Assembly: GCA_001768195.1 (NCBI GenBank)
Contig: MENI01000089.1
Span: forward strand, 1-32,028
Reading direction: 5' to 3'
Source of the DNA: Bacteroidetes bacterium GWA2_40_15
GTDB taxonomy: Bacteria > Bacteroidota > Bacteroidia > Bacteroidales > VadinHA17
Length of the DNA: 32,028 bases
Shown here: piece after piece, positions 8,663 to 30,486 of the stretch
How positions within the stretch are numbered: the stretch's first letter is position 1
Layout: every line of letters starts with the position of its first letter
Translations under genes and position numbers: made by a program
Notes under the pieces: model-generated
Database searches by the model: none
What the model saw: the letters and a program-made list of their open reading frames with translations, nothing else
Told to the model about the DNA's origin: nothing

Positions 8663-9499
8663 TCAACTTGAGATAATCGAATTAATGTATTTATTTATGG
8701 TTATTTCGTTATTGGGTCGCAATCTTACAGGTATTGAAAAATATATACCGCTTCCGCTTGTTCCATTGCACTGGATGTTGAAGGTACCGCCCAAAAGTTG
8801 AATCAGCTTTTTGGCCAGCGTTATGTTCACAGCTGAACTCAGATCGTGATACTGTGAAAGTGAATCAGCAAGATCATTTGTATTAAGAAATTCCCTGGTC
8901 TTCAAATAACCCTGGCCGGAATCAAGTACATAAAAAGTAACTTCGTTTTCACTGCTGAAGTAGCCTGTTTTAATATACCCTGAATCTGTATTTTGTAAAG
9001 AATTCTGAAAAAGACACCTCAAAATCCTGTAAACCCTTATTTTATCAATGAAAATATTATGTGATTCTGAAAACTGAATTTCAGTAACAAGTTCAATGCT
9101 CTCTTTTCCCGTTTTTCTTAATACTTCCCTGAATTCCGAAAAAAGACCATCCAAAAGATTATTATGATTACAGATTAATTCATCACTTTTAGGTATGCCG
9201 GTATCAACTATTGCTGATTCAAGATAATTCTCAAATAATGCAATAAGTTGTTCACATGTACTATATATCTGATTAACAAATTCATCACGTTCAGGTTCTA
9301 CAAGCGATTTATCCTTAAGCAGAAATGCAAGAGAGATAATGGAATTCATCTGGGTTCTCATCTCATGAGACATTCCATTTAATACGGAAGTGTTAAACGC
9401 AATTGTCCTGGAAAAAGGATTTATTCCAGTATCCTTCTGCCTGGTATTGGTTCCCGAAGTATCTTCCGAGGCAATACTATTTCCTTGAATTTCAAACAT
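8663..9499 (-). CDS. Soluble histidine kinase lacking an obvious sensor domain
   Basis: A 278-residue protein with a dimerisation/phospho-acceptor domain (about 30-105) and an ATPase domain (about 115-260). The H-box is MSHEMRTQMNS with H45; the proline usual after the RT is Q50 here. The N-box LFQNSLQNTDSG keeps its asparagine (N166), G1 is LDSGQG (D193), and SGSGIYFSIP near 248 is the final glycine-rich motif. No membrane helix, PAS or receiver domain is visible, and no response regulator is adjacent. It begins 18 bases after the stop of the upstream TPR-membrane gene on the same strand, suggesting an operon. I infer a signalling role in the locus; its input and partner are unknown. Confidence 0.8.
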   Translation of the reverse strand: MFEIQGNSIASEDTSGTNTRQKDTGINPFSRTIAFNTSVLNGMSHEMRTQMNSIISLAFLLKDKSLVEPERDEFVNQIYSTCEQLIALFENYLESAIVDTGIPKSDELICNHNNLLDGLFSEFREVLRKTGKESIELVTEIQFSESHNIFIDKIRVYRILRCLFQNSLQNTDSGYIKTGYFSSENEVTFYVLDSGQGYLKTREFLNTNDLADSLSQYHDLSSAVNITLAKKLIQLLGGTFNIQCNGTSGSGIYFSIPVRLRPNNEITINKYINSIISS

Positions 9500-9517
9500 A
9501 AGTAGTGATTAATAATG

Positions 9518-10264
9518 TCACTTTAATCTTCTTAGAACCTTTCTGGCTTCTTTGCTGTAAATACCTCCATCATTTTTTATTGATACGAGCAATTGAGCAG
9601 CCCTGTTATTATCTTCAGTCTTTACATAGCATAATGCGAGATACCATCGGGCCGATTCAATATAGAGGTTGTTGTTGTCATCTATCACTGTAGTAAAAGA
9701 ATTCCTGGCTTCGTTGAATTGCTTCACTTCCATATTTGATACGCCGGAAAGAAGATGAGTCTGCATGTCATCCGGATTACTTTCAAGTACTTTGGCAAAC
9801 TGAGAGGCCGCATTTCTGTAATCCTGCTCATTATAGTATTTTAGTCCCAGAATATAATCAGTGTTTGCTTCTGAAGCAGCTGATCGCTGTGCGGATGGGG
9901 CTTCATAGGATTCATAGAACTGGGATACAATCTCCTCACTCGTTAGTGTTTGTCCGGTGAAAAGAATGAGGCCTGTTATGATTGCAACTCCTGCAAAAGC
10001 AGCAGCATATTTCAATAAATTCATTCTCAGGAACATACGGCTCTTCTTCTTTTCAAATCGTATCCTGTCTATATCAGACAGCTTAGTCCGCAATGACATA
10101 ACAGATTGCCTTTTAAGAATTTCATCAGTATGCTTCCTGGTCTCTGTCTCTTTTTTCAGTTGTTCATTTCCTTCTATCTCCTTCAGGAACCACTGCCTTT
10201 CTGATTCGGTCATTTCAAAGGCATTATACCTTTCAATGAAATATGAAAAATCTCTTGTCTTCAT
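9518..10264 (-). CDS. Single-pass membrane TPR protein with anti-sigma-like N-terminus
   Basis: 248 residues in three parts. The highly charged N-terminal part (1-82) includes FEMTESERQWFLKEIEGNE, resembling the helical N-termini of Bacteroidota anti-sigma-type proteins. One membrane helix follows (about 83-103, LLKYAAAFAGVAIITGLILF). The rest is an extracytoplasmic TPR region (about 136-230; for example YILGLKYYNEQDYRNAASQF, and ESARWYLALCYV). Basic residues before the helix predict the N-terminus inside the cell. The gene lies between the GG-leader peptide gene and the kinase on the same strand, and an ECF-like sigma gene is 3.6 kb away in the locus. An anti-sigma role is inference: there is no zinc finger or FecR domain. 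Confidence 0.78.
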   Translation of the reverse strand: MKTRDFSYFIERYNAFEMTESERQWFLKEIEGNEQLKKETETRKHTDEILKRQSVMSLRTKLSDIDRIRFEKKKSRMFLRMNLLKYAAAFAGVAIITGLILFTGQTLTSEEIVSQFYESYEAPSAQRSAASEANTDYILGLKYYNEQDYRNAASQFAKVLESNPDDMQTHLLSGVSNMEVKQFNEARNSFTTVIDDNNNLYIESARWYLALCYVKTEDNNRAAQLLVSIKNDGGIYSKEARKVLRRLK

Positions 10265-10426
10265 TTGATATAAATTTATAATAATTCACTGTTATACAGA
10301 CAATTATCGTATTAACTTAAATAATCCATAATTTAAGCTGCATCTTAAATGCAGACTGACCCGACTTTCATCAACTTCAGCAGCACATTTCTCTCATAGC
10401 TGCTTTTTGAGAGTAATAATCCAATT
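10265..10426 (-). other. Spacer between GG-peptide gene and TPR gene with small hairpins
   Basis: No gene seen in 162 bases. On the minus strand just after the peptide stop, CTCTCA (10413-10408) pairs with TGAGAG (10396-10391), and further on CTGCAT/ATGCAG flank a short loop (around 10337-10353). Neither is followed by a clear T-run, so they may be partial terminators or RNA-processing hairpins that set different expression of peptide and downstream genes. An overlapping AGCAGC / GCTGCT pair at 10379-10404 is followed by TTTT on the plus strand. Confidence 0.35.
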
Positions 10427-10561
10427 TTATATCTTGGTTGGAGGAGGGGTAGGCCAGTCATCATTTCCGGCATCTCCGCCACGAACAGTAATCATTTCTT
10501 CGTTTGTAAGTTCAAATGCATCAAAAATGTCTTTTGTCAATTCAAAATTCTGAGTTTTCAT
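10427..10561 (-). CDS. Double-glycine leader peptide (putative secreted peptide precursor)
   Basis: A 44-residue open frame. The leader (residues 1-29) starts MKTQNFELTK and ends FELTNEEMITVRGG. This is the pattern of GG-type precursors cleaved by C39 peptidases: acidic helical leader, hydrophobic residues at spaced positions, Gly-Gly at 28-29. Cleavage would release a 15-residue core, DAGNDDWPTPPPTKI, which is acidic, proline-rich and cysteine-free. A C39-containing ABC exporter and HlyD partner lie 4 kb away. ATG 10561 is preceded by an A-rich leader typical of Bacteroidota. It resembles the GG-Bacteroidales natural-product precursor class (TIGR04149-like, from memory). No lanthipeptide, radical-SAM or other modification enzyme is in the locus, so the product may be unmodified. 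Activity is unknown. Confidence 0.75.
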   Translation of the reverse strand: MKTQNFELTKDIFDAFELTNEEMITVRGGDAGNDDWPTPPPTKI

Positions 10562-10780
10562 GGTTTCTTTTTTTTATATTTATACTGATTCAGGGTTATT
10601 CGTTTTATATAGTACATGTCAGAAGATGCCATTTTGTGACACAAAAAAATCAACTATTTTTAAATTATTTTTTAAATAACATATAATCAGATATATACAA
10701 ATCCCGTTTCAAATAGAAAATTAACCACTCTTTTCTATATTTGAAATAAAAACAGGTTTTTTCCTCAATAGTAAGAATAA
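10562..10780. promoter_or_regulatory. Divergent regulatory region between GG peptide and TPR-CHAT gene
   Basis: 219 AT-rich bases separate the start codons of the minus-strand peptide gene and the plus-strand TPR-CHAT gene, so both promoters should lie here. TATATTTG at 10736-10743 matches the Bacteroidota -7 box and sits 37 bases before the CHAT ATG, but no TTTG is placed at the right distance upstream. That leaves room for use of an alternative sigma factor. No clear -7 box was found for the peptide direction. Confidence 0.45.
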
Positions 10781-13700
10781 ATGATCATTTCTGTTAGTAG
10801 CCGGATATTCACCATTATTATGATTTCAGTCTGGCTGGTTATCATTGAAACTACTGAGGTAATAAATGCAATTGATTCATGTGTAGTGGATTATTCAGGT
10901 CTCTTAATTGCAGATGAAACTCCAAAAATGCAGTCCGCAGCTTCGTCAGATCTTGTCAGGCTAACCGATTTGCTTAAAGAACAATTGATCAGTGGCAGAT
11001 ACGACCATGGGAGAAAAACAGTCAGTGAGATTATCTCCTTAATCGTATCAGATAATCTGGATAGTGCGATAGTTGCTGATTCTTATTATTATATTGGAGT
11101 ATATTACAAATTGATCGAGGATTATGACACTTCGATTCAATTTCTGGACCGGTCGGTATCTCTGAAGGAAAAACTCTCAATATTTGATGATAATTATGCA
11201 AAAGCTCTTTATAATCTGGGCGGAAATTATGCAAATATTGGAGTTTTTAAGAAGCACAAAGATTATACTCTGAAATCACTTGATATAGAAAAGCAGATCT
11301 ATGGCGAGAATAACTATGCTCTTATCAGTACTTATGCGAGTCTAATTACTGCTTATATTGAACTGAAAGACTATGAAAAAGCTTTGGATCTGGTTGATAT
11401 TGTATATAGTATCATTGATCATAATTCATCAACTGCAGATCCACAATTCGTTGCCTTTTTGTACCACAATATCGGATTCCTTTATAATTCATCAGGAGAT
11501 TATTCTAAAAGTAAGATGTTATTCGAAAAAGCAGAAGAATTCTATATTAAAGCCGGAAAAACTACAGAGGAAGGTTATATTAATCTTATGAACAGCATGG
11601 CAGTTGCATTAAGGAACCTTGGTCTGCTGGAAAAATCTGGTGAATATTATAAAAAGGGTATTGAACTTGCAAAAAGGAGTAATTCATCATCTTCCTATCT
11701 GATGTTGAGTTCTTATGCAATAACACTGGGAAAAGCCGGAAAGGTGACAGATGGCGAATCAGTTTTAGCTGATCTTCTGAAACGGACCAAAACAACAAAC
11801 AGTTCAGGTTCGCATAATTACTATGAAGTCTTAGGTTATTATGCAAATTACCTTCGTGAGTTTAATATCGATAAAGAAAAGTCTCTTGAATACTTCTCAC
11901 AATGCATTGAGTATTTCGATAAGCAGGGAGATTCATTTCTGAAATACCCGGTTAAAGAAGGATATGCAATAATTCTCTCTGAGAACGGTGAATATGAAAA
12001 ATCACTGAAGATTTTGCAGACACTGCTTTTTTCTGAGAATTCAGGTTCAGGAAGGGAAAATATATTTTTAAATCCGGATATTGACAACATCAATGCCGAT
12101 AAGGATTATCTGGGAGCTCTTAGAACCAAATACCAGATACTTAAAACTTTTTATAAGAATTCACACGACCTGAAGATACTTGAATCATGCGCAAATACTG
12201 CTGAATTGATAATTTCCCTCCTTGAGAAAATAAGAATAAATATTAGTGAGGAGGAGAGCAGGCTGCTTCTTGGAGACCGTTATCGCGATTCATATCTTGC
12301 CGTGATCAGAGATTTCTATCTGCTTTATAACAATACATTCAACACGTCATATCTCAATAAAGTATTTGAATATTCTGAGAAGAGTAAGATTGCAGGACTG
12401 CTTACTGCGACTCGCGAATTAAAGGCAACACAGTTTCATATCCCTTCTGAACTGGCCGGGATGGAACATAGTCTTCAACAGGAAGCCGCTATTCTTAACG
12501 ACCGTGTCGCCGGCAGGTCGGAGTTTGGCAGCGCATCTGTCGATATTGTAGCTATATGGAAGAAAAATCTGTTCAATACAATCCGTAAGCGGGATTCGCT
12601 TATAAAAGTTTTTGAAAAGGATTACCCTGATTACTATTCAATTAAATATAATACGCAGGTTATAAGAGCTGATGAGATCCCTGGTATCATTGGCAAAAAA
12701 AACAATTATATAAGCTATGTGGCATCTGATTCAAATATATTTATAAGTATTGTGAACAAAAGATATCAGAAAACAATTGCCATAATTGTTGATTCGTTAT
12801 TTTATGCCAAAATAAGAAAGTTCAGAAGCCTTCTTACAATGCCTGACTTTAATAATGCCAGAAATGAATTAAGGGATTACTATACAACAGGATATGAATT
12901 GTATACCACTTTGATTGCTCCGGTAAAACCTTACCTGATATCTGAAAGGGTTATGATATCTCCTGATAATTTATTGTCGTACATACCATTTGAAACGTTA
13001 CCGGTCGCTACAGGGAATATTGAGAATTTATCGTACCATAATATTGAATACCTGATGAAGGAATTGGATATTTCATATACATATTCTGCAACATTCATGG
13101 CTGAAAATATCAGGCACGGTTATCAGGAGGGAAATATTGCGATTGCATTTGCTCCTGACTACTCTGAACCGGTGGAAATCAACTCACTGTTTCAAAAACG
13201 GCAGAAAACCGGAAATATTCTCTCAAATCTTCCTTTTGCAAAGAAGGAGGCTGAATATGTATACGAATTAATGGGAGGTAAACTTCTTGTAAATGATTTT
13301 GCAGTGGAATCACAGTTCAAGAAAGAGGCGGGGAATTATGATATAATTCATCTTGCAATGCATACTGTTATCGATGACAATGATCCTATGTATTCCACTT
13401 TAATCTTTAGTCCTGAAAACTCTGGTGAAGAGGACCGGTATCTGAGAACATTTGAGATTTATGATATTCCTCTTAAGGCTAAGATGGTTGTATTGAGTTC
13501 CTGTAATACAGGTATCGGGAAACTTTATTCAGGTGAAGGTATCTTAAGTCTGGCAAGAGGTTTCATCTATTCAGGCAGTGAATCAGTTGTAATGTCAATG
13601 TGGGAGATAGAAGACAGAACCGGTACTGAAATTGTTAAATCATATTATGATAATCTGAAGAAGGGATATTCGAAAAGTGTATCATTGAAAAAAGCAAGAG

Positions 13701-13882
13701 TTAAATTTCTCGAAACTGCCGACCAGTTAAGGGCTCATCCATATTTCTGGTCAGCCCTGGTAATTTATGGAGACAACTCTCCTTTGATCAGACGAAGGTT
13801 GATCTGGCCGGTTATTTTAACAATTGTTCTGATATTCTCAATTCCGGCTTTTTACTACTTCAGGAAGCGCAGGTATTCGTGA
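10781..13882 (+). CDS. TPR-CHAT protein (caspase-like protease), membrane-associated
   Basis: 1033 residues. An N-terminal hydrophobic segment (about 9-25) is a signal or anchor. TPR units run from about 95 to 470 (for example ADSYYYIGVYYKLIEDYDTS and ALYNLGGNYANIG), then a helical linker, then a C-terminal CHAT domain (about 690-1000). The presumed catalytic dyad is intact: H861 in IIHLAMHT and C908 in VVLSSCNTG, followed by GEGILSLARGFIYSG and SVVMSMWEI, which are typical of the family. A last membrane helix (about 1008-1027) is flanked by RRR and RKRR. CHAT proteases are caspase/separase relatives, and in known systems the TPR part senses a signal and activates proteolysis. The convergent sigma gene overlaps its 3' end by 28 bases. 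Target and topology are unknown. Confidence 0.88.
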   Translation: MIISVSSRIFTIIMISVWLVIIETTEVINAIDSCVVDYSGLLIADETPKMQSAASSDLVRLTDLLKEQLISGRYDHGRKTVSEIISLIVSDNLDSAIVADSYYYIGVYYKLIEDYDTSIQFLDRSVSLKEKLSIFDDNYAKALYNLGGNYANIGVFKKHKDYTLKSLDIEKQIYGENNYALISTYASLITAYIELKDYEKALDLVDIVYSIIDHNSSTADPQFVAFLYHNIGFLYNSSGDYSKSKMLFEKAEEFYIKAGKTTEEGYINLMNSMAVALRNLGLLEKSGEYYKKGIELAKRSNSSSSYLMLSSYAITLGKAGKVTDGESVLADLLKRTKTTNSSGSHNYYEVLGYYANYLREFNIDKEKSLEYFSQCIEYFDKQGDSFLKYPVKEGYAIILSENGEYEKSLKILQTLLFSENSGSGRENIFLNPDIDNINADKDYLGALRTKYQILKTFYKNSHDLKILESCANTAELIISLLEKIRINISEEESRLLLGDRYRDSYLAVIRDFYLLYNNTFNTSYLNKVFEYSEKSKIAGLLTATRELKATQFHIPSELAGMEHSLQQEAAILNDRVAGRSEFGSASVDIVAIWKKNLFNTIRKRDSLIKVFEKDYPDYYSIKYNTQVIRADEIPGIIGKKNNYISYVASDSNIFISIVNKRYQKTIAIIVDSLFYAKIRKFRSLLTMPDFNNARNELRDYYTTGYELYTTLIAPVKPYLISERVMISPDNLLSYIPFETLPVATGNIENLSYHNIEYLMKELDISYTYSATFMAENIRHGYQEGNIAIAFAPDYSEPVEINSLFQKRQKTGNILSNLPFAKKEAEYVYELMGGKLLVNDFAVESQFKKEAGNYDIIHLAMHTVIDDNDPMYSTLIFSPENSGEEDRYLRTFEIYDIPLKAKMVVLSSCNTGIGKLYSGEGILSLARGFIYSGSESVVMSMWEIEDRTGTEIVKSYYDNLKKGYSKSVSLKKARVKFLETADQLRAHPYFWSALVIYGDNSPLIRRRLIWPVILTIVLIFSIPAFYYFRKRRYS

Positions 13883-14424
13883 TATTCGGGGTCCTCTTTT
13901 ATCAGATCCATTAGTACTTCCTTGCACAAATATTTCTTCCGCCTGGCGTATTCTTCACTGTTAAAATTCATTATTTGTGCTATCTCTTCATATGAGGTTC
14001 CTTCTGCAAAAAGGTTCAGAACAGTCTGCTGATCCGGTTTCAATTTTGTGAATGCCCTGCTCACTATCTTTTCAAGAAGAAGGTTATTGCTCTCTTCAAG
14101 GCCATCATCATCAGGATAGTCAGTCAGCAGTTCAGTTGTCTTCTGTTTTCTTCGGAGCTGGGTATTCCATATATTTCTGGCAATACCAAAAAAATATCCT
14201 TTAAGATCTGTTTCCAGTTTCAGCTTATTATCAAGAATCTGTTCGTATAATACAATTATCGAATCCTGAAGAACATCAGATACGTCATCATCAGACCCGC
14301 TATTCATCATAACATGATCCCTTACTATCCGGTAATAGTTGTCGTATATCCAATTAAGAATCCTGTCATCCTGCTTTCGGATGCCTTCAATAATTTCAGT
14401 ATCGTTGTATTTCTTAAATAACAC
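13855..14424 (-). CDS. ECF-like sigma-70 family RNA polymerase sigma factor
   Basis: A 189-residue sigma factor with region 2 at about 15-95 (DVSDVLQDSIIVLYEQI and DLKGYFFGIARNIWNTQLRR) and region 4 at about 125-180 (LKPDQQTVLNLFAEGTSYEEIAQIMNF, whose EEIAQIM helix is the -35 recognition type). Regions 1.1 and 3 are absent, as in ECF factors. The start codon is GTG at 14424. It is transcribed towards the TPR-CHAT gene and the two coding ends overlap by 28 bases. Bacteroidota ECF factors are usually paired with a membrane anti-sigma factor; no FecR/SusC pair is present, so the TPR membrane protein at 9518-10264 or the CHAT protein are the candidate partners by inference. Confidence 0.88.
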   Translation of the reverse strand: MLFKKYNDTEIIEGIRKQDDRILNWIYDNYYRIVRDHVMMNSGSDDDVSDVLQDSIIVLYEQILDNKLKLETDLKGYFFGIARNIWNTQLRRKQKTTELLTDYPDDDGLEESNNLLLEKIVSRAFTKLKPDQQTVLNLFAEGTSYEEIAQIMNFNSEEYARRKKYLCKEVLMDLIKEDPEYHEYLRFLK

Positions 14425-14577
14425 TCTGGTGAGAAAATCTCAGCCGCAAATATAATACTTCCTTAATCCAAAATATTTGTATTCTGTTTAGTGCCCCTAT
14501 TTTATAACTCAGATAGATTCTGCATTATCAAAATATAAATATCTTTACTCGAAATAATACTTTTCCCTTCTCAAGAA

Positions 14578-16764
14578 ATGTCATTCCCATTTGTAAAACA
14601 ACCTGATGCAATGGACTGTGGCCCTGCCTGCCTCAAGATGATTGCAGGGTATTATAAAGTAAATCATTCACTTGAGTCATTGAGGAAGAAATGCTACATT
14701 ACCAGGGAGGGTGTGTCATTTCTTGGATTGTCTGAAGCGGCTGATTCTATCGGATTCAGGACAATCGGAGTAAAAATTCCCTTTGGGATGCTGAATGAAA
14801 ATGTACCTTTACCATGCATTGTTCACTGGAAACAGAAGCATTTTGTTGTTGTTTACAAAATCAGAAAGGAAATTCTCTGGGTAGCTGACCCGGGTCTTGG
14901 CCTCATTAAATATAAACGTGAAGAATTTGTAAAAAACTGGGCTGCTACTACTCAGGAAGGAGAGCCTGCCGGACTTGTTCTCATTCTTGAACCAACTCCT
15001 GCCATTTTCAGGAATGAAACCAATCCTGAATCAGGAAGAGGATTCGGGTTTCTATATAAGTATTTCCGGATTTACCAGAAGTATTCATTCCAACTGATTC
15101 TTGGATTAATTCTGGCAAGCTGCATCCAGCTTGTAATACCTTTTCTGACACAATCTGTTATTGATATCGGATTAAACAATAATGATCTGGGATTTATTTA
15201 CCTGATCCTTTTTGCCCAGCTTGCACTGGTATTGGGACGGATGTCGGTTGAGTTTATAAGGGGATGGTTGCTTCTTCATATAGGCTCGAGGGTCAATGTG
15301 GCTGTAATATCTGATTTCCTGCAGAAACTAATGTCAATGCCTGTTTCCTTCTTTGAAACTAAGCTGACAGGCGATATTTTGCAGCGGATTGAAGACAATA
15401 GCAGAATAGAAGATTTCCTCACCTCTGCCAGCCTGAGCATAATGTTTTCTTTCTTCAATCTTATTGTTTTCGGGATAGTACTTGCCATATATAGTTTGAA
15501 GATACTGTTAATCTTTCTTTCTGGTGCTGCGCTATATATCTTATGGGTCTCACTTTTTATGAAATCACGGGCAAGACTTGATCATTTACGCTTCAGGAAA
15601 ATGTCTGAATCAGGCAGTAAGCTTATCAACATCGTTAACGGTATGCAGGAAATCAAGCTTACCCAGAGCGAACTAAGTATGAGATGGGACTGGGAGAAAA
15701 TTCAGGCATCACTTTTCAGTCTGAAGGTAAAGGGGTTGTCTATTATTCAATTCCAGTCTGCCGGAGCAACTCTGATTAATGAGGTAACAAATATCTTTAT
15801 TACCATAATTGCTGCAACTGCTGTTCTGAAAGGTGATATGACCCTGGGTATGATGCTTGCTGTTCAGTTTATTACCGGACAACTGAATGTTCCTTTGAGT
15901 CAGATGATTGGATTTTTCAAGATGTCGCAGGATGCAAAAATCAGTCTTGACCGCCTTTCCGAAGTTCACCATATGGAAAATGAAGAGGCAAATCCGGAAG
16001 CAAAAGTGCGGAAACTCCCTGTCAATAAGGATATTTTTGTAAATAACATTTCATTTCAGTACGAAGGTCCTCATTCACCTTTCGCATTAAAGGATATTGA
16101 CCTTTTTATTGAAGGGAATAAGAAAACTGCTATTGTCGGTTCAAGCGGAAGCGGAAAGACTACTTTGCTCAAGATGCTGTTGGGATTTTATCAGCCGGTA
16201 AACGGAGAGATCATGATAGGCGATACACGATTATCAAACATAAGTCTCAAACTCTGGAGAAACAGAGTTGGTGCTGTTATGCAGGATGGATTTATATTCC
16301 CTGATACAATTGCAGCTAACATTGCTCCCGGTTCCGGAGAGATGGATGAAGCAAGACTGGTCTACGCAGCAGAAATTGCGAATATCCGGGGATTTGTTGA
16401 ATCATTGCCACTGGGATATAATACAAAAGTAGGGGCAAATGGTCACGGACTTAGTGAAGGACAGAAACAGAGGCTTCTCATAGCCAGAGTGGTTTATAAG
16501 GATCCGGATGTAATTGTATTCGATGAAGCAACGAATTCCCTCGATGCTTATAATGAAAAAGTAATAGTGGAAAACCTTACAACTTTCTTTGATGGAAAAA
16601 CGGTAATTATCGTTGCCCATAGACTCAGTACAGTAAAAAATGCAGATAAAATTGTGGTCATTGACAATGGCCGGATTGTTGAGACAGGAACGCATAACAG
16701 CCTTATTGAAAAACGGGGAGTATATTTTAATCTCGTAAAAAACCAGCTTGAACTTGGAAACTAG
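14578..16764 (+). CDS. Peptidase-containing ABC exporter (C39 peptidase-TMD-NBD)
   Basis: 728 residues with all three expected parts. The N-terminal C39 peptidase (1-135) has KQPDAMDCGPACLKMIAGYY with catalytic C14, H88 in QKHFVVVY and D104 in VADPG. The membrane domain (about 165-440) has several hydrophobic helices. The ATPase domain (about 485-728) has Walker A GSSGSGKTT (521-529), signature LSEGQKQR (625-632), Walker B VIVFDE (645-650) and H681 in VAHRLST. Such proteins cut a precursor after Gly-Gly and export the core. The peptide at 10427-10561 is the obvious local substrate. The HlyD partner starts 10 bases after the stop codon, so these two form an operon. Confidence 0.95.
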   Translation: MSFPFVKQPDAMDCGPACLKMIAGYYKVNHSLESLRKKCYITREGVSFLGLSEAADSIGFRTIGVKIPFGMLNENVPLPCIVHWKQKHFVVVYKIRKEILWVADPGLGLIKYKREEFVKNWAATTQEGEPAGLVLILEPTPAIFRNETNPESGRGFGFLYKYFRIYQKYSFQLILGLILASCIQLVIPFLTQSVIDIGLNNNDLGFIYLILFAQLALVLGRMSVEFIRGWLLLHIGSRVNVAVISDFLQKLMSMPVSFFETKLTGDILQRIEDNSRIEDFLTSASLSIMFSFFNLIVFGIVLAIYSLKILLIFLSGAALYILWVSLFMKSRARLDHLRFRKMSESGSKLINIVNGMQEIKLTQSELSMRWDWEKIQASLFSLKVKGLSIIQFQSAGATLINEVTNIFITIIAATAVLKGDMTLGMMLAVQFITGQLNVPLSQMIGFFKMSQDAKISLDRLSEVHHMENEEANPEAKVRKLPVNKDIFVNNISFQYEGPHSPFALKDIDLFIEGNKKTAIVGSSGSGKTTLLKMLLGFYQPVNGEIMIGDTRLSNISLKLWRNRVGAVMQDGFIFPDTIAANIAPGSGEMDEARLVYAAEIANIRGFVESLPLGYNTKVGANGHGLSEGQKQRLLIARVVYKDPDVIVFDEATNSLDAYNEKVIVENLTTFFDGKTVIIVAHRLSTVKNADKIVVIDNGRIVETGTHNSLIEKRGVYFNLVKNQLELGN

Positions 16765-16773
16765 ACCATCTTT

Positions 16774-18063
16774 ATGAGAGAGAAAAAACCTGACATAATT
16801 TATTCAGAACCCGTTAAAGAGATAATGGGAAACCCGCCATCAGGGATACTCAGGTGGGGTAATCTGGTTTTATTATCGGTTTTTATCCTGTTTATAATCT
16901 TTGCATGGATTATAAAATATCCTGACACAATACCGGCTCCTGTTGAGATTACCACAGTCAATCCCCCCGCTACTCTCGTTACGAAAATCACAGGCAGGAT
17001 CAGATATCTTTATGTTGAGGATAAGGACAGTGTTTATTCCGGTCAGCTTCTGGCTGTTATGGAAACCACTGCGTCTGTTGAAGAGATAGAATTATTAAAG
17101 AAGACCATAGATGCAATAATCAGGCCTGAAGAGACAGAATATAGCCAACTTCCTCATTTATCTCAACTTGGAGAACTGCAGAATGTATATGCCGGTTTCC
17201 TGAAAAATCTGTCTGATCTTACATCTTATCTGTCGAATGATTATTATGGAAATAAAATAATCTCACTCACTGCCGAGATTGATGCAATTGGTGAATATAT
17301 GAACCGATTGAAGGTCAAGGAAAAATTGTTTACTGATAACCGCCGGCTTGAAGCAAACAAATACCGGAGAGATTCATTGCTTTTTATCAACAAGGTCATT
17401 CCTGAAAGTGAGTATGAAAAATCACATCAGGCCTTGATAAGAAATAATATAGAACTGCAACAGGTAAGACTTGACTTTTCTGAGAAATCGATAGAAATGG
17501 CCGGGAAGGATCAGATGCTTCGGGATTACCGGATTAAGCGCATTGAGGAAAAGGAAAAACTCTTCGCGGTTTTAAACGAGTCCTTTCTCAATCTGCAGGC
17601 TCAGATAAAAATATGGGAGAATACATACCTTCTTCGCTCACCTTTTGACGGATTTGTGACTTTTACGCGCTATTGGAATGAAAATCAGGTTGTAACAAAA
17701 GATGATCCGGTTTTGAATGTTGTACCTCATGAAACAGGTAGTTACCTTGGGAGAATAAATCTTAAGATGCAGAGATCGGGAAAAGTCAAACCAGGGCAAA
17801 AAGTCAATATCAAATTAAGTAGTTATCCATATCTGGAATATGGAATGGTCAGAGGAATTATTAAAACAAAATCGCTTGTACCCTCAGGCGATACCTATGT
17901 AATTGAGATTGATCTTCCTGATGGTCTGACCACTCTTTATGGAACTAAGCTGGAATTTACTCAAAACATGAGCGGAACTGCAGAAATCATCACAGAAGAT
18001 CTTCGTTTGCTTCAGAAGCTTATTAATCCATTCAGGTATCTTATTTCAATAAACAAGGAATAG
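16774..18063 (+). CDS. HlyD-family membrane fusion protein of the peptide exporter
   Basis: 429 residues: short cytoplasmic N-terminus, one membrane helix (about 28-47, LVLLSVFILFIIFAWIIKYP), first lipoyl half (TGRIRYLYVEDKDSVYSGQLLAVME), a long alpha-helical hairpin (about 100-280, rich in Glu, Lys and Leu), second lipoyl half (LRSPFDGFVTFTRYWNENQVV), and a beta-barrel region with VKPGQKVNIKLSSYPYLEYG near 345. Family members link an inner-membrane ABC exporter to the outer membrane. The gene follows the C39 exporter by nine bases. No TolC-like outer-membrane gene is adjacent, so a shared one would be needed. Confidence 0.93.
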   Translation: MREKKPDIIYSEPVKEIMGNPPSGILRWGNLVLLSVFILFIIFAWIIKYPDTIPAPVEITTVNPPATLVTKITGRIRYLYVEDKDSVYSGQLLAVMETTASVEEIELLKKTIDAIIRPEETEYSQLPHLSQLGELQNVYAGFLKNLSDLTSYLSNDYYGNKIISLTAEIDAIGEYMNRLKVKEKLFTDNRRLEANKYRRDSLLFINKVIPESEYEKSHQALIRNNIELQQVRLDFSEKSIEMAGKDQMLRDYRIKRIEEKEKLFAVLNESFLNLQAQIKIWENTYLLRSPFDGFVTFTRYWNENQVVTKDDPVLNVVPHETGSYLGRINLKMQRSGKVKPGQKVNIKLSSYPYLEYGMVRGIIKTKSLVPSGDTYVIEIDLPDGLTTLYGTKLEFTQNMSGTAEIITEDLRLLQKLINPFRYLISINKE

Positions 18064-28171: not shown

Positions 28172-28202
28172 TTTGACTGAATTGAAAAATCATATATATT
28201 TG
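28172..28202 (+). promoter_or_regulatory. Bacteroidota-type promoter of the cobalamin operon
   Basis: TTTG at 28172-28175 and TATATTTG at 28195-28202 are separated by 19 bases, matching the TTTG-N19-TAnnTTTG consensus. Transcription should begin close to 28209, just where the riboswitch begins, which supports the call. Confidence 0.65.
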
Positions 28203-28206
28203 TAAT

Positions 28207-28403
28207 GTTTTGGTGTTGCAGTGAAATAAAATCATTGCAATGAAAAGGGAATGCGGTTAGAATCCGCAACAGTACCCGCTGCTGTGATGCCCGATCCCGC
28301 GTAACGCGGGATGATGGTTTTGTGAACTACCTGCCACTGTCCCGAATACCCGGGATGGGAAGGCTTCAGAAAACCGGGATAAGTCAGAAGACCTGCCATA
28401 CAT
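28207..28403 (+). ncRNA. Cobalamin (B12) riboswitch
   Basis: Conserved elements appear in order: a P2 stem TTGCAGTGA / TCATTGCAA, AAAAGGGAATGCGG followed by TTAGAATCCGCAACAGTACCC, GCTGCTGTGATGC, CTGCCACTGT, ATGGGAAGGC, and the closing AAGTCAGAAGACCTGCC at 28381-28397. These match the B12 riboswitch core including the GCCACTG box. A peripheral arm holds a perfect hairpin ATCCCGCG-TAA-CGCGGGAT at 28294-28312. It lies upstream of a BtuB-like gene and should lower its expression when cobalamin is bound. The following 28404-28536 is the likely expression platform, with a weak hairpin AAGGA / TCCTT around 28435-28460; control of translation rather than termination seems more likely as no strong terminator is seen. 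Confidence 0.93.
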
Positions 28404-28536
28404 GCCGATATTCAAAGCTTTCGGGAAGAAAAGCAAGGATCATTAACTGATTCCCTCCTTGAAATTTCCCATTTAAGCTGAATGTTGTAAACGGCCGCAA
28501 AGACCGGTTAAGTATTTTAAATGGAGATTACGATAG

Positions 28537-30486
28537 ATGGGTAGTTACAGGCACAGGATGCTGACTCTTAAAGTTTACATAACAGGATTACTGCTTCTGA
28601 CCGGTATTTCTATTAAAGCCCAGATATCATCTGAACTGGATACTATTGAGATAAAAGAAGTTATTATTACACATAAGAAAGTTCCGGCTGACCTGATTGG
28701 ATTTAAGAGTATTGCAATTGATTCATCAGTAACCGGTAATTTCAGTCATGAAACACTTGCTGATTTATTGGCACAGAGCTCAGATATTTCTGTAAAGAGC
28801 TATGGTGTCGGTGGATCTGCAACCCCCTCTTTCAGGGGAACAAGCGCAAGTCAAACCCAGCTTCAGTGGAACAATATATCAATTAATAATCCCATGTTGG
28901 GTCAGGCAGATCTTTCACTTATTCCTGTCGGACTGATTGATAAGATAGATATTTATTATGGCGGCTCTTCAATGCCGGCAGGAAACGGAGGAATAGGAGG
29001 CACTATTAATCTGCAAACAAAACCAGTGTGGAATAATAATACAACTATTACCTTAAACCCCGGAGCAGGCAGTTTTGGACATTACTCCGGAGTCGTAAAG
29101 GTAAGAACCGGTAGTCTTAGTTTCCAGTCTGTGACAAAAGCATACATGCAATATGCGGAAAACAATTTCAGCTTTTTAAATGATGTAAGCTCCGCAGAGC
29201 CTGTTTGGGAGATAAGAAGAAACAATCAGACTTTTCAGAAGGGACTTCTTCAGGAACTTTACTACAGGAAATTAAAAAATGTTCTTTCAGCCAGATTATG
29301 GTATCAGTCTGCAGACCGTAACCTTCCGGCATCAATTCTGATTCAGCAACCTGACGGGAATGAAAAACAGCTAGATGAATCGTTAAGAACAATTATTAAT
29401 TACGACGGATTCAAAGGATTAACTGAATATTTTATTGCAGGATCGTTTTCAGTTTCAAAACTTGATTATTCAAATAAGCTGGCTTCAATAGATTCCCGTA
29501 ATCTCTCAGAAATGCTGATACTAAAAGCCGGCCTGGTAAATAATATTGGTCAATATGTCCGTACTAAAATTACAATTGACAATGAAAATACACTGGTTAA
29601 ATCAGAAAACTATGAGGATAACAGGACCGGAAGAAATGTGGTATCAGTGACTGCTTTAGCTGAGGTGAATGGTTCCGGCAGATTTGGTGCAACCTTTTTA
29701 TTCCGTGAGATTATTAACAATAATTCTATATTGCTGCCAGATTATTCAACTGGGCTGCAGATGCAGATTGCCGCCGGCAGGGAATATTATCTTAAAGCAA
29801 ATTATTCCAGAAATTCAAAGCTCCCGTCTATGAATGATTTATACTGGGCCCCGGGAGGGAATCCTTCACTTATGAACGAATCTGCAAATATGTTTGAGAT
29901 CATCTATGAAATGAAAGAGCAGATCTACTCACCGCTTTATTTGAATTTCGATATTGCACTTTATCATAACACAATAAAGAATATGATTCAGTGGCTTCCA
30001 GGTAATTATGCTTATTGGATGGCCGAAAATGTAAAGAGTGTTAATACATCAGGATTGGAGTCTGAATTATCTTTCAGTTACACACATAACAAAATTTCAT
30101 CGATTCTAAAACTAAGTTATACTTATACAAGGGCAACCACGAAAGATTCAGAAATTACTAATGATGAATCTATTGGTAAACAGCTGATTTATGTACCGGA
30201 GAATCAGGCAAATGCTGCCTTAAGGTTCAACTATTCCGGGTTTTATTCAAATTGGATTTCTTCCTTTACCGGCAGGAGATATACTACTTTAGATAACACC
30301 TCTTACCTTCCTGCATATTTTATTAATTCATTGTCAGTCGGCTATGGTATAAACCACAAGGATAATCTTTACAATTTAAGTCTCACTGCAGATAATATAT
30401 TCAGTACAGGATATGAAGCAATAGCATACTATCCCCAGCCCGGACGTTCATTTTCTTTAAAACTTTTAATTCAATTTATAAAATAG
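28537..30486 (+). CDS. btuB: TonB-dependent vitamin B12 receptor (BtuB-like)
   Basis: 649 residues. A signal peptide ends near TGISIKAQ (residue about 28). A TonB-box-like stretch (DTIEIKEVIITHKK) is followed by the plug domain (about 65-165, with SHETLADLLAQSSDISVKSY, the FRGTSASQTQLQWN motif, and AGNGGIGGTINLQT). The remainder is beta-barrel strands ending in SLKLLIQFIK. The B12 riboswitch just upstream and a BtuG-like and BtuF-like gene downstream identify cobalamin or a related corrinoid as substrate. ATG 28558 (M8) is an alternative start that would still leave a signal peptide. Outer-membrane uptake, powered by TonB, is expected. Confidence 0.92.
   Translation: MGSYRHRMLTLKVYITGLLLLTGISIKAQISSELDTIEIKEVIITHKKVPADLIGFKSIAIDSSVTGNFSHETLADLLAQSSDISVKSYGVGGSATPSFRGTSASQTQLQWNNISINNPMLGQADLSLIPVGLIDKIDIYYGGSSMPAGNGGIGGTINLQTKPVWNNNTTITLNPGAGSFGHYSGVVKVRTGSLSFQSVTKAYMQYAENNFSFLNDVSSAEPVWEIRRNNQTFQKGLLQELYYRKLKNVLSARLWYQSADRNLPASILIQQPDGNEKQLDESLRTIINYDGFKGLTEYFIAGSFSVSKLDYSNKLASIDSRNLSEMLILKAGLVNNIGQYVRTKITIDNENTLVKSENYEDNRTGRNVVSVTALAEVNGSGRFGATFLFREIINNNSILLPDYSTGLQMQIAAGREYYLKANYSRNSKLPSMNDLYWAPGGNPSLMNESANMFEIIYEMKEQIYSPLYLNFDIALYHNTIKNMIQWLPGNYAYWMAENVKSVNTSGLESELSFSYTHNKISSILKLSYTYTRATTKDSEITNDESIGKQLIYVPENQANAALRFNYSGFYSNWISSFTGRRYTTLDNTSYLPAYFINSLSVGYGINHKDNLYNLSLTADNIFSTGYEAIAYYPQPGRSFSLKLLIQFIK

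Follow-up and report, generated by a model that had tools for sequence, protein, structure and literature searches.

A candidate protease-gated ECF sigma factor switch linked to a GG-leader peptide and its exporter in Bacteroidales

The stretch of DNA analysed (the window; 32,028 nucleotides (nt) of contig MENI01000089.1 from Bacteroidetes bacterium GWA2_40_15) carries seven neighbouring genes for a histidine kinase (HK), a membrane protein with tetratricopeptide repeats (TPRm), a short peptide with a double-glycine (GG) leader (PEP), a TPR-CHAT protease (CHAT), an extracytoplasmic function (ECF) sigma factor (SIG), a C39-peptidase ABC exporter (C39) and an HlyD-type adaptor (HlyD). An earlier note on this DNA had proposed that they constitute a candidate peptide-secretion and signalling locus, in which a TPR part senses the exported peptide or its accumulation, CHAT cleaves a membrane or anti-sigma partner and the sigma factor then drives both peptide and exporter. 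The present analysis compared the locus with the remainder of the window's own genome (G000; 4.77 Mb, in which the window contig is designated C89) and with stretches fetched around related genes (designated by L numbers).

Gene content and predicted topology of the locus

All seven reading frames proved open and intact at the coordinates collected in Table 1, with matching domains, and the gene set of the earlier note was thereby confirmed. The genes are arranged as two divergent pairs, PEP-TPRm-HK on the reverse strand opposing CHAT on the forward strand, and SIG (reverse) opposing C39-HlyD (forward). CHAT and SIG share their final 28 nt (13855-13882) in a tail-to-tail overlap, and the overlap is likewise 28 nt in L034.

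Table 1. Positions in the window of the genes and features of the locus.
Feature	Position	Strand	Basis
HK, histidine kinase	8663-9499	-	HisKA 36.8 bits; HATPase_c 19.6 bits, below cut-off (Pfam); PEP-TPRm-HK operon
TPRm, TPR membrane protein, predicted anti-sigma factor	9518-10264	-	Pfam TPRs
TPRm Arg127-Ser128 codons, predicted CHAT cleavage site	9881-9886	-	linker conservation and low pLDDT
PEP, GG-leader peptide, 44 aa	10427-10561	-	open reading frame, family alignment
Promoter-like element TGTCACAAA-N12-GACATGTA	10613-10641	-	upstream of PEP-TPRm-HK operon, end ~50 nt from PEP start codon
TPR-CHAT protease	10781-13882	+	Pfam CHAT (PF12770) 170.9 bits, curated cut-off 24
CHAT catalytic His861 codon	13361-13363	+	invariant; role by analogy
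CHAT catalytic Cys908 codon (SSCNTG)	13502-13504	+	invariant; role by analogy
SIG, ECF sigma factor, GTG start	13855-14424	-	sigma70-ECF (NCBIfam) 55.2 bits, cut-off 42.9; Sigma70_r4_2 (Pfam) 27.6 bits; Sigma70_r2 19.6 bits, below Pfam cut-off
C39-peptidase ABC exporter	14578-16764	+	Peptidase_C39 127.5, ABC_tran 101.9 bits (Pfam)
HlyD-type adaptor	16774-18063	+	HlyD_3 41.3 bits (Pfam)

The CHAT protein consists of a signal peptide, a TPR part (residues ~54-460), the CHAT domain (704-998) and a C-terminal membrane helix (~1008-1032), and is predicted to be extracytoplasmic, lying outside the inner membrane. Both H861 and C908 were invariant in all 21 rows of the alignment; among 82 relatives from outside the window's family the His motif was retained in 81, the Cys motif in 79 and both in 78, and with this intact His/Cys dyad peptidase activity is predicted. 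The closest solved folds included Craspase Csx29 (the top match) and separase, and the protein scored 16.7 bits with the NCBIfam Csx29 equivalog model, which requires 300. Its named relatives came from metagenome-assembled genomes of uncultured Bacteroidales or Bacteroidota. Anti-phage defence models run on four of the locus proteins returned a generic TPR match and nothing else.

TPRm has an N-terminal part of ~80 residues, probably cytoplasmic, followed by a single membrane helix and a TPR domain outside. The helix was evident from hydrophobicity in 55 of 56 family members and 62 of 65 order relatives, and was also present in the structure model. Residues 126-131, with a predicted local distance difference test (pLDDT) score below 50, form a disordered linker that adjoins the membrane on its outer side, in which the position of Arg127 was occupied by Arg in 56/57 family and 54/57 out-of-family rows, and that of Ser128 by Ser in 54/57 and 40/57 respectively. 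Arg127-Ser128 is consequently predicted as a candidate site for cleavage by CHAT. A search for TPRm relatives to serve as a control away from CHAT gave 26 matches in 10 genomes, from which no loci were obtained. The picture drawn by the earlier note needs changing in two respects: no sensor domain was seen in HK, and CHAT is predicted to lie outside the membrane.

The PEP leader ends in VRGG and precedes a predicted cargo of 15 residues, DAGNDDWPTPPPTKI, which is Pro-rich and devoid of Cys. In the family alignment L18, E22, M23, G28 and G29 were invariant (24/24 rows), and P40, at the end of the cargo, was kept in at least 90% of rows; a family genome usually contains one copy. While no NCBIfam model matched PEP, it fits the GG-leader peptide class as a short open reading frame (ORF) with a conserved GG-ended leader and a C39 exporter nearby, and cleavage after GG is predicted. 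The exporter combines C39, membrane and ATPase domains in a single chain (PCAT-type), complete with the active-site motif DCGPACL.

Conservation within the family and recurrence beyond it

Within the window's family, PEP was matched in 86 of 118 genomes at E ≤ 1 (a few of the weakest matches, located in long frames, look spurious), and CHAT in 101 of 118 at E ≤ 1e-60. The stretches fetched around PEP matches, several of them shortened by contig ends, provided 56 family loci, L083, L089, L090 and L091 being excluded as not this locus. TPRm was present in 56, CHAT in 55, PEP in 52, HK in 50, C39 in 50, SIG in 49 and HlyD in 40, and the complete seven-gene set in 33. A single gene order and a single chromosomal place were kept across the family; the genes form one conserved unit, as the earlier note had supposed. 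Since the flanking genes are syntenic too, synteny within the family in itself proves little.

PEP fell under the threshold in four loci (L081, L082, L084, L093), for three of whose genomes weak PEP matches and the promoter element (vide infra) were nevertheless recorded, and HK was missing from six (L035, L067, L084, L085, L088, L092), an absence that a contig end may explain in L035 and L067. In eight fetched loci of genus g14, each with C39 (L072, L073, L074, L076, L079, L080, L082, L093), no HlyD gene was found in the interval from C39 to the DUF349 gene, and the cargo may therefore remain periplasmic there.

Of the 344 genomes of the order, 127 contained a relative of CHAT (E ≤ 1e-80), as did 21 of a sample of 247 from the phylum, the window's own genome being included in both counts. 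Eighty out-of-family stretches were fetched, and the 67 whose sequence upstream of CHAT exceeds 3 kb were used for counts: SIG was present in 54, TPRm in 54, a GG-type peptide ORF in 27, a T9-class neighbour (defined below) in 28, C39 in 16 and HK in 15. SIG and TPRm were same-strand neighbours in 50 of the 58 out-of-family loci having both, at a median gap of -11 nt, and the peptide was almost always divergent from CHAT, mostly at a distance of 90-500 nt. Side by side with these arrangements, L194 carries, upstream of CHAT, a tandem run of four GG-peptide genes whose cargo ends are almost identical.

The T9 class comprises same-strand upstream neighbours selected by position and length criteria only (28 genes), of which 20 contained Por_Secre_tail, the sorting domain of the type IX secretion system (T9SS) in Pfam. 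As several of the other eight were ordinary unrelated genes, the counts were repeated with a strict class of 19, picked by eye from size and a signal-like start ahead of the Pfam scan of all 28. C39 occurred in none of the 28 broad-class loci against 16 of the other 39 (p = 6e-5), and in 0/19 of the strict class against 16/48 (p = 0.003); the peptide was likewise found in 0/19 against 27/48 (p = 1e-5). Peptide and C39, by way of contrast, co-occurred (13/27 loci with the peptide against 3/40 without; p = 2.5e-4). In variants L182-L212 and L232 the protein upstream of CHAT is a secreted one of ~400 residues, with a T9SS sorting domain and dockerin-like and prealbumin-like parts.

The earlier note had held that CHAT/sigma/TPR sets mostly lacking exporter and peptide, together with exporter sets mostly lacking CHAT, would indicate chance adjacency. 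Within the fetched stretches the core is indeed mostly exporter-free, with C39 in only 16 of the 67 loci, but the association of peptide with C39 and the exclusion of both from T9SS-type loci tell the opposite way, and the out-of-family pattern is one of cargo substitution around a sigma-TPR-CHAT core.

Promoter elements of the cargo and sigma factor genes

The fixed-spacing element TGTCACAAA-N12-GACATGTA was traced through the dyad GTCAC-N16-ACATG, common to 45 of 53 family intergenic regions between peptide and CHAT, compared with at most 9 for the best dyad of block-shuffled regions. In the eight regions without an exact copy (L042, L049, L059, L060, L063, L070, L074, L080) it was degenerate by eye or, for L080, the region was shortened. 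The element is oriented toward PEP and ends mostly 45-70 nt from its start codon. The window's own genome contains exactly two exact sites, at PEP and at C56:5228-5256, whilst 18 more with three mismatches equate to background (reversed control: 15). At no more than one mismatch the element occurred in 75 of 118 family genomes, with 102 sites (hand-counted) against 1 for the control, and in none of the 17 family genomes lacking CHAT, a result which, as most sites lie at PEP, is partly the same fact.

Of 27 surplus sites distal to the locus, 20 were fetched. In four of these stretches (L275, L278, L281, L288) the element heads an operon containing C39, accompanied in L275 and L288 by HlyD and a helix-turn-helix (HTH) gene. 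As the window's own genome contains just two C39 peptidase domains, one being that of the locus exporter, 4 of 19 distal sites at C39 operons is far above expectation. The distal site of that genome (L274:4229-4513; G000:C56) lies ahead of an HTH ORF that is cut off by the end of the contig and is similar to the one in L281. The remaining distal stretches either showed secreted proteins or, in two genomes, a conserved 247-aa protein, or lacked a clear gene. This conserved protein (MASTTETGHAKNVANF...; L282:6086-6829 and L286:1559-1924, both on the reverse strand, the frame in L286 being shorter) belongs to no assigned family and starts ~60 nt past the element. At another distal site, L277 carries a second full copy of the locus, its own peptide included.

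A promoter shared by peptide and exporter at the locus was sought and none found: the ten top dyads of the PEP regions had no occurrence in 50 family SIG/C39 regions, and the corresponding element of other families preceded C39 in 0/23 cases within SIG-bearing loci. The proposal that the sigma factor drives the exporter in situ is therefore unsupported, although the same element heads C39 operons at the four distal sites.

In other families, peptide and T9-class genes were preceded by GGTTACCTTTT, GGGTAACGTTT, CGGCTACCTTTT or TTGTCACGTTT, with a second box ~16 nt further on (by eye), a GGTTACC-type element found ahead of both the sigma gene and the cargo. Counts in SIG-bearing loci with a -35-type regular expression, devised after viewing the upstream regions of peptide and T9-class genes and independent of that choice for all other rows (SIG, HK, TPRm, CHAT, C39, HlyD and other genes), were 13/35 for the peptide, 11/22 for the T9 class, 24/57 for SIG, 5/13 for HK, 2/63 for TPRm, 0/56 for CHAT, 0/12 for HlyD and 14/447 for other genes. 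Enrichment over these other genes was marked for SIG (p = 4e-16) and HK (p = 7e-5). In loci without SIG the element preceded 1/6 peptides, 2/6 T9-class genes, 0/20 CHAT and 5/157 other genes.

The elements of SIG and cargo were, moreover, alike within a locus, differing at 2.74 positions against 4.98 on shuffling (0/2000 shuffles as close; 23 pairs from 19 loci, some pairs coming from one family). In L229 TGGGACATTTT stands ahead of both genes, and in L232 and L200 the second box is identical. No other result argues as strongly that the sigma factor recognises both its own gene and that of the cargo. A paralogous set in the window's own genome (L090, G000:C84, 6201-11416) comprises a 507-aa HK, a sigma factor, a 340-aa TPRm and a CHAT gene truncated where the contig stops; the GGTTACC-type element was not found ahead of its sigma or HK gene.

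The RNA between PEP and TPRm had an unremarkable fold (z -1.03; 27 of 200 shuffles equally good), and a simple sigma-70 promoter scan gave no excess (42 found; shuffle mean 33.0, sd 5.8). Elsewhere in the window a Cobalamin riboswitch (28193-28414, forward strand; Rfam, 92.8 bits) lies ahead of the gene at 28537.

A proposed protease-gated switch, its alternatives and related systems

From the gene set, synteny, topology prediction, promoter element, conserved arginine and folds established computationally, the reading we favour, at a probability of about 0.6, is a protease-gated ECF switch. We infer that TPRm is an anti-sigma factor which binds SIG and keeps it at the inner membrane, and that the TPR-CHAT protein acts as extracytoplasmic receptor and first protease. 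The cue would be bound by its TPR part and would most likely be a peptide, perhaps exported PEP; CHAT would then cleave TPRm on the C-terminal side of Arg127, in the loop adjoining the outer face of the membrane, and after further proteolysis SIG would be free to use the TGTCACAAA-N12-GACATGTA promoter and transcribe the PEP-TPRm-HK operon. PEP and its putative anti-sigma factor would thus rise together, a positive output with feedback built in. C39 would cut the leader at GG and export the cargo, and in some genomes SIG may also drive further peptide-export operons. The proposal of the earlier note that CHAT cleaves an anti-sigma partner, and that the sigma factor then drives the peptide, fits the topology, the element and the near-invariant linker Arg.

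Several observations weigh against such a switch. The N-terminal part of TPRm matched no Pfam anti-sigma family, none being among the Pfam families listed for the 24 members, and its fold was unmatched, the Foldseek rows spanning the TPR half. In 13 of the 67 out-of-family loci CHAT relatives stand without sigma and TPRm genes in the fetched stretch, and the element can precede T9-class and peptide genes where SIG is absent, two classes on which the -35 expression had itself been modelled. In the window's family the element was seen ahead of neither SIG nor C39, and in 15 of the 20 distal stretches the genes that follow are unrelated or truncated, or no clear gene is present. The exact TGTCACAAA form is absent out of family, with two three-mismatch matches in 1.37 Mb. 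As the element is missing ahead of SIG in the window's family, recognition of TGTCACAAA-N12-GACATGTA by SIG is suggested by analogy with other families.

Two alternatives concern the part played by PEP. In the first, which is possible though it falls short of even odds, the switch operates unchanged and PEP is output only, an exported effector, surface or antagonistic peptide, CHAT responding instead to envelope stress, blocked secretion or the like. This accords with the strong variation of cargo between families (Pro-rich, Asp-rich or WPEPEV-ended) and with the frequent T9SS-type operon neighbour of peptide-less loci, as would be expected of a swappable output slot. Conservation of the cargo end within the family and the usual single copy are a better fit to a signal than to a weapon, however, and nothing resembling an immunity gene was noticed at the locus; single copy and lack of such a gene together lower the bacteriocin reading.

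In the second, equally tentative, the exported cargo would be a pheromone that binds to the TPR domain of periplasmic CHAT, and the cut at Arg would release SIG to make more peptide, a self-sensing or quorum-type loop. The TPR part of CHAT resembles RRNPP receptors (NprR, Rap) in fold, a generic similarity; the locus has CHAT in place of their HTH or phosphatase part, and RRNPP peptide receptors are cytoplasmic. To our knowledge, no peptide signalling by such an extracytoplasmic proteolytic switch has been recorded in Bacteroidota.

It is improbable that a bacteriocin locus and a sigma-CHAT module are unrelated neighbours held together by chromosome-wide synteny. The syntenic flanks within the family and the mostly exporter-free core outside it would suit that explanation, but the divergent arrangement of peptide and CHAT genes recurs in many other families whose flanks differ, the peptide is associated with C39, and its element is of the same type as that of the sigma gene and matched to it within loci; on these grounds chance adjacency was rejected. 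Least likely of all, PEP might be a securin-like inhibitor or substrate of CHAT rather than its activator, since separase is held by securin, the CHAT fold resembles separase and the genes are divergent neighbours, but the GG leader and C39 exporter indicate export, and many cargos lack a suitably placed basic residue (by eye).

The proposed protease-gated switch has several relatives. In Craspase, Csx29 (TPR-CHAT) cuts Csx30, the inhibitor of CASP-sigma (PMC10028731), and this type III-E CRISPR system shares with the present locus a TPR-CHAT protease, a sigma inhibitor and an ECF sigma factor. The locus differs in having no CRISPR genes (no Cas7-11 effector gene was present among the listed genes of 8663-18063 and their neighbours), a CHAT protein predicted to lie outside the membrane, a membrane TPR protein as the putative inhibitor, and a secreted peptide and its promoter as members of the unit. 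Genes for CHAT proteins, subtilases or carboxypeptidases are found around ECF54 sigma genes, and proteolytic control without an anti-sigma factor has been proposed for these sigma factors (PMC8999054); here, by contrast, a membrane partner is tightly linked to the sigma factor and a GG peptide is the output. As in DegS-RseA/RpoE (PMC10028731), a first extracytoplasmic cut of a single-span anti-sigma factor would release an ECF sigma factor, but a caspase-fold protease with a TPR receptor would replace DegS, and the anti-sigma factor is different. DdvA, a transmembrane anti-sigma factor (PDB 8rw5, 8rot), is itself the anti-sigma factor, whereas here receptor-protease and putative anti-sigma factor are separate. 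In Porphyromonas gingivalis the T9SS-type protein PorA affects PorXY-SigP (PMC7712824), so that a secreted C-terminal-domain protein feeds back on a secretion-controlling ECF sigma factor; that link is a two-component one without CHAT and bears on the T9SS-type variant only. Gene neighbourhoods with EACC2 (PMC8195603) likewise place a caspase-domain gene near ECF sigma and TPR genes, but include TRADD-N, EACC2 and DUF1822, and GG peptide and exporter go unmentioned in the relevant part of that source. No description of CHAT combined with a GG peptide and exporter was found in the open-licence literature, and the combination would be a new variation on protease-gated ECF systems.

The locus suggests that the Craspase principle of a TPR-CHAT protease controlling an ECF sigma factor is in widespread use outside CRISPR. 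The output of the sigma factor would be a secreted peptide or protein, a new way to couple secretion and gene control, and what chromosomal CHAT proteases do in Bacteroidales becomes directly testable through one residue in each of two proteins and one promoter. Were the peptide also the cue, these bacteria would possess a peptide-signalling pathway, and in a sister design a T9SS-type protein would take the peptide's place.

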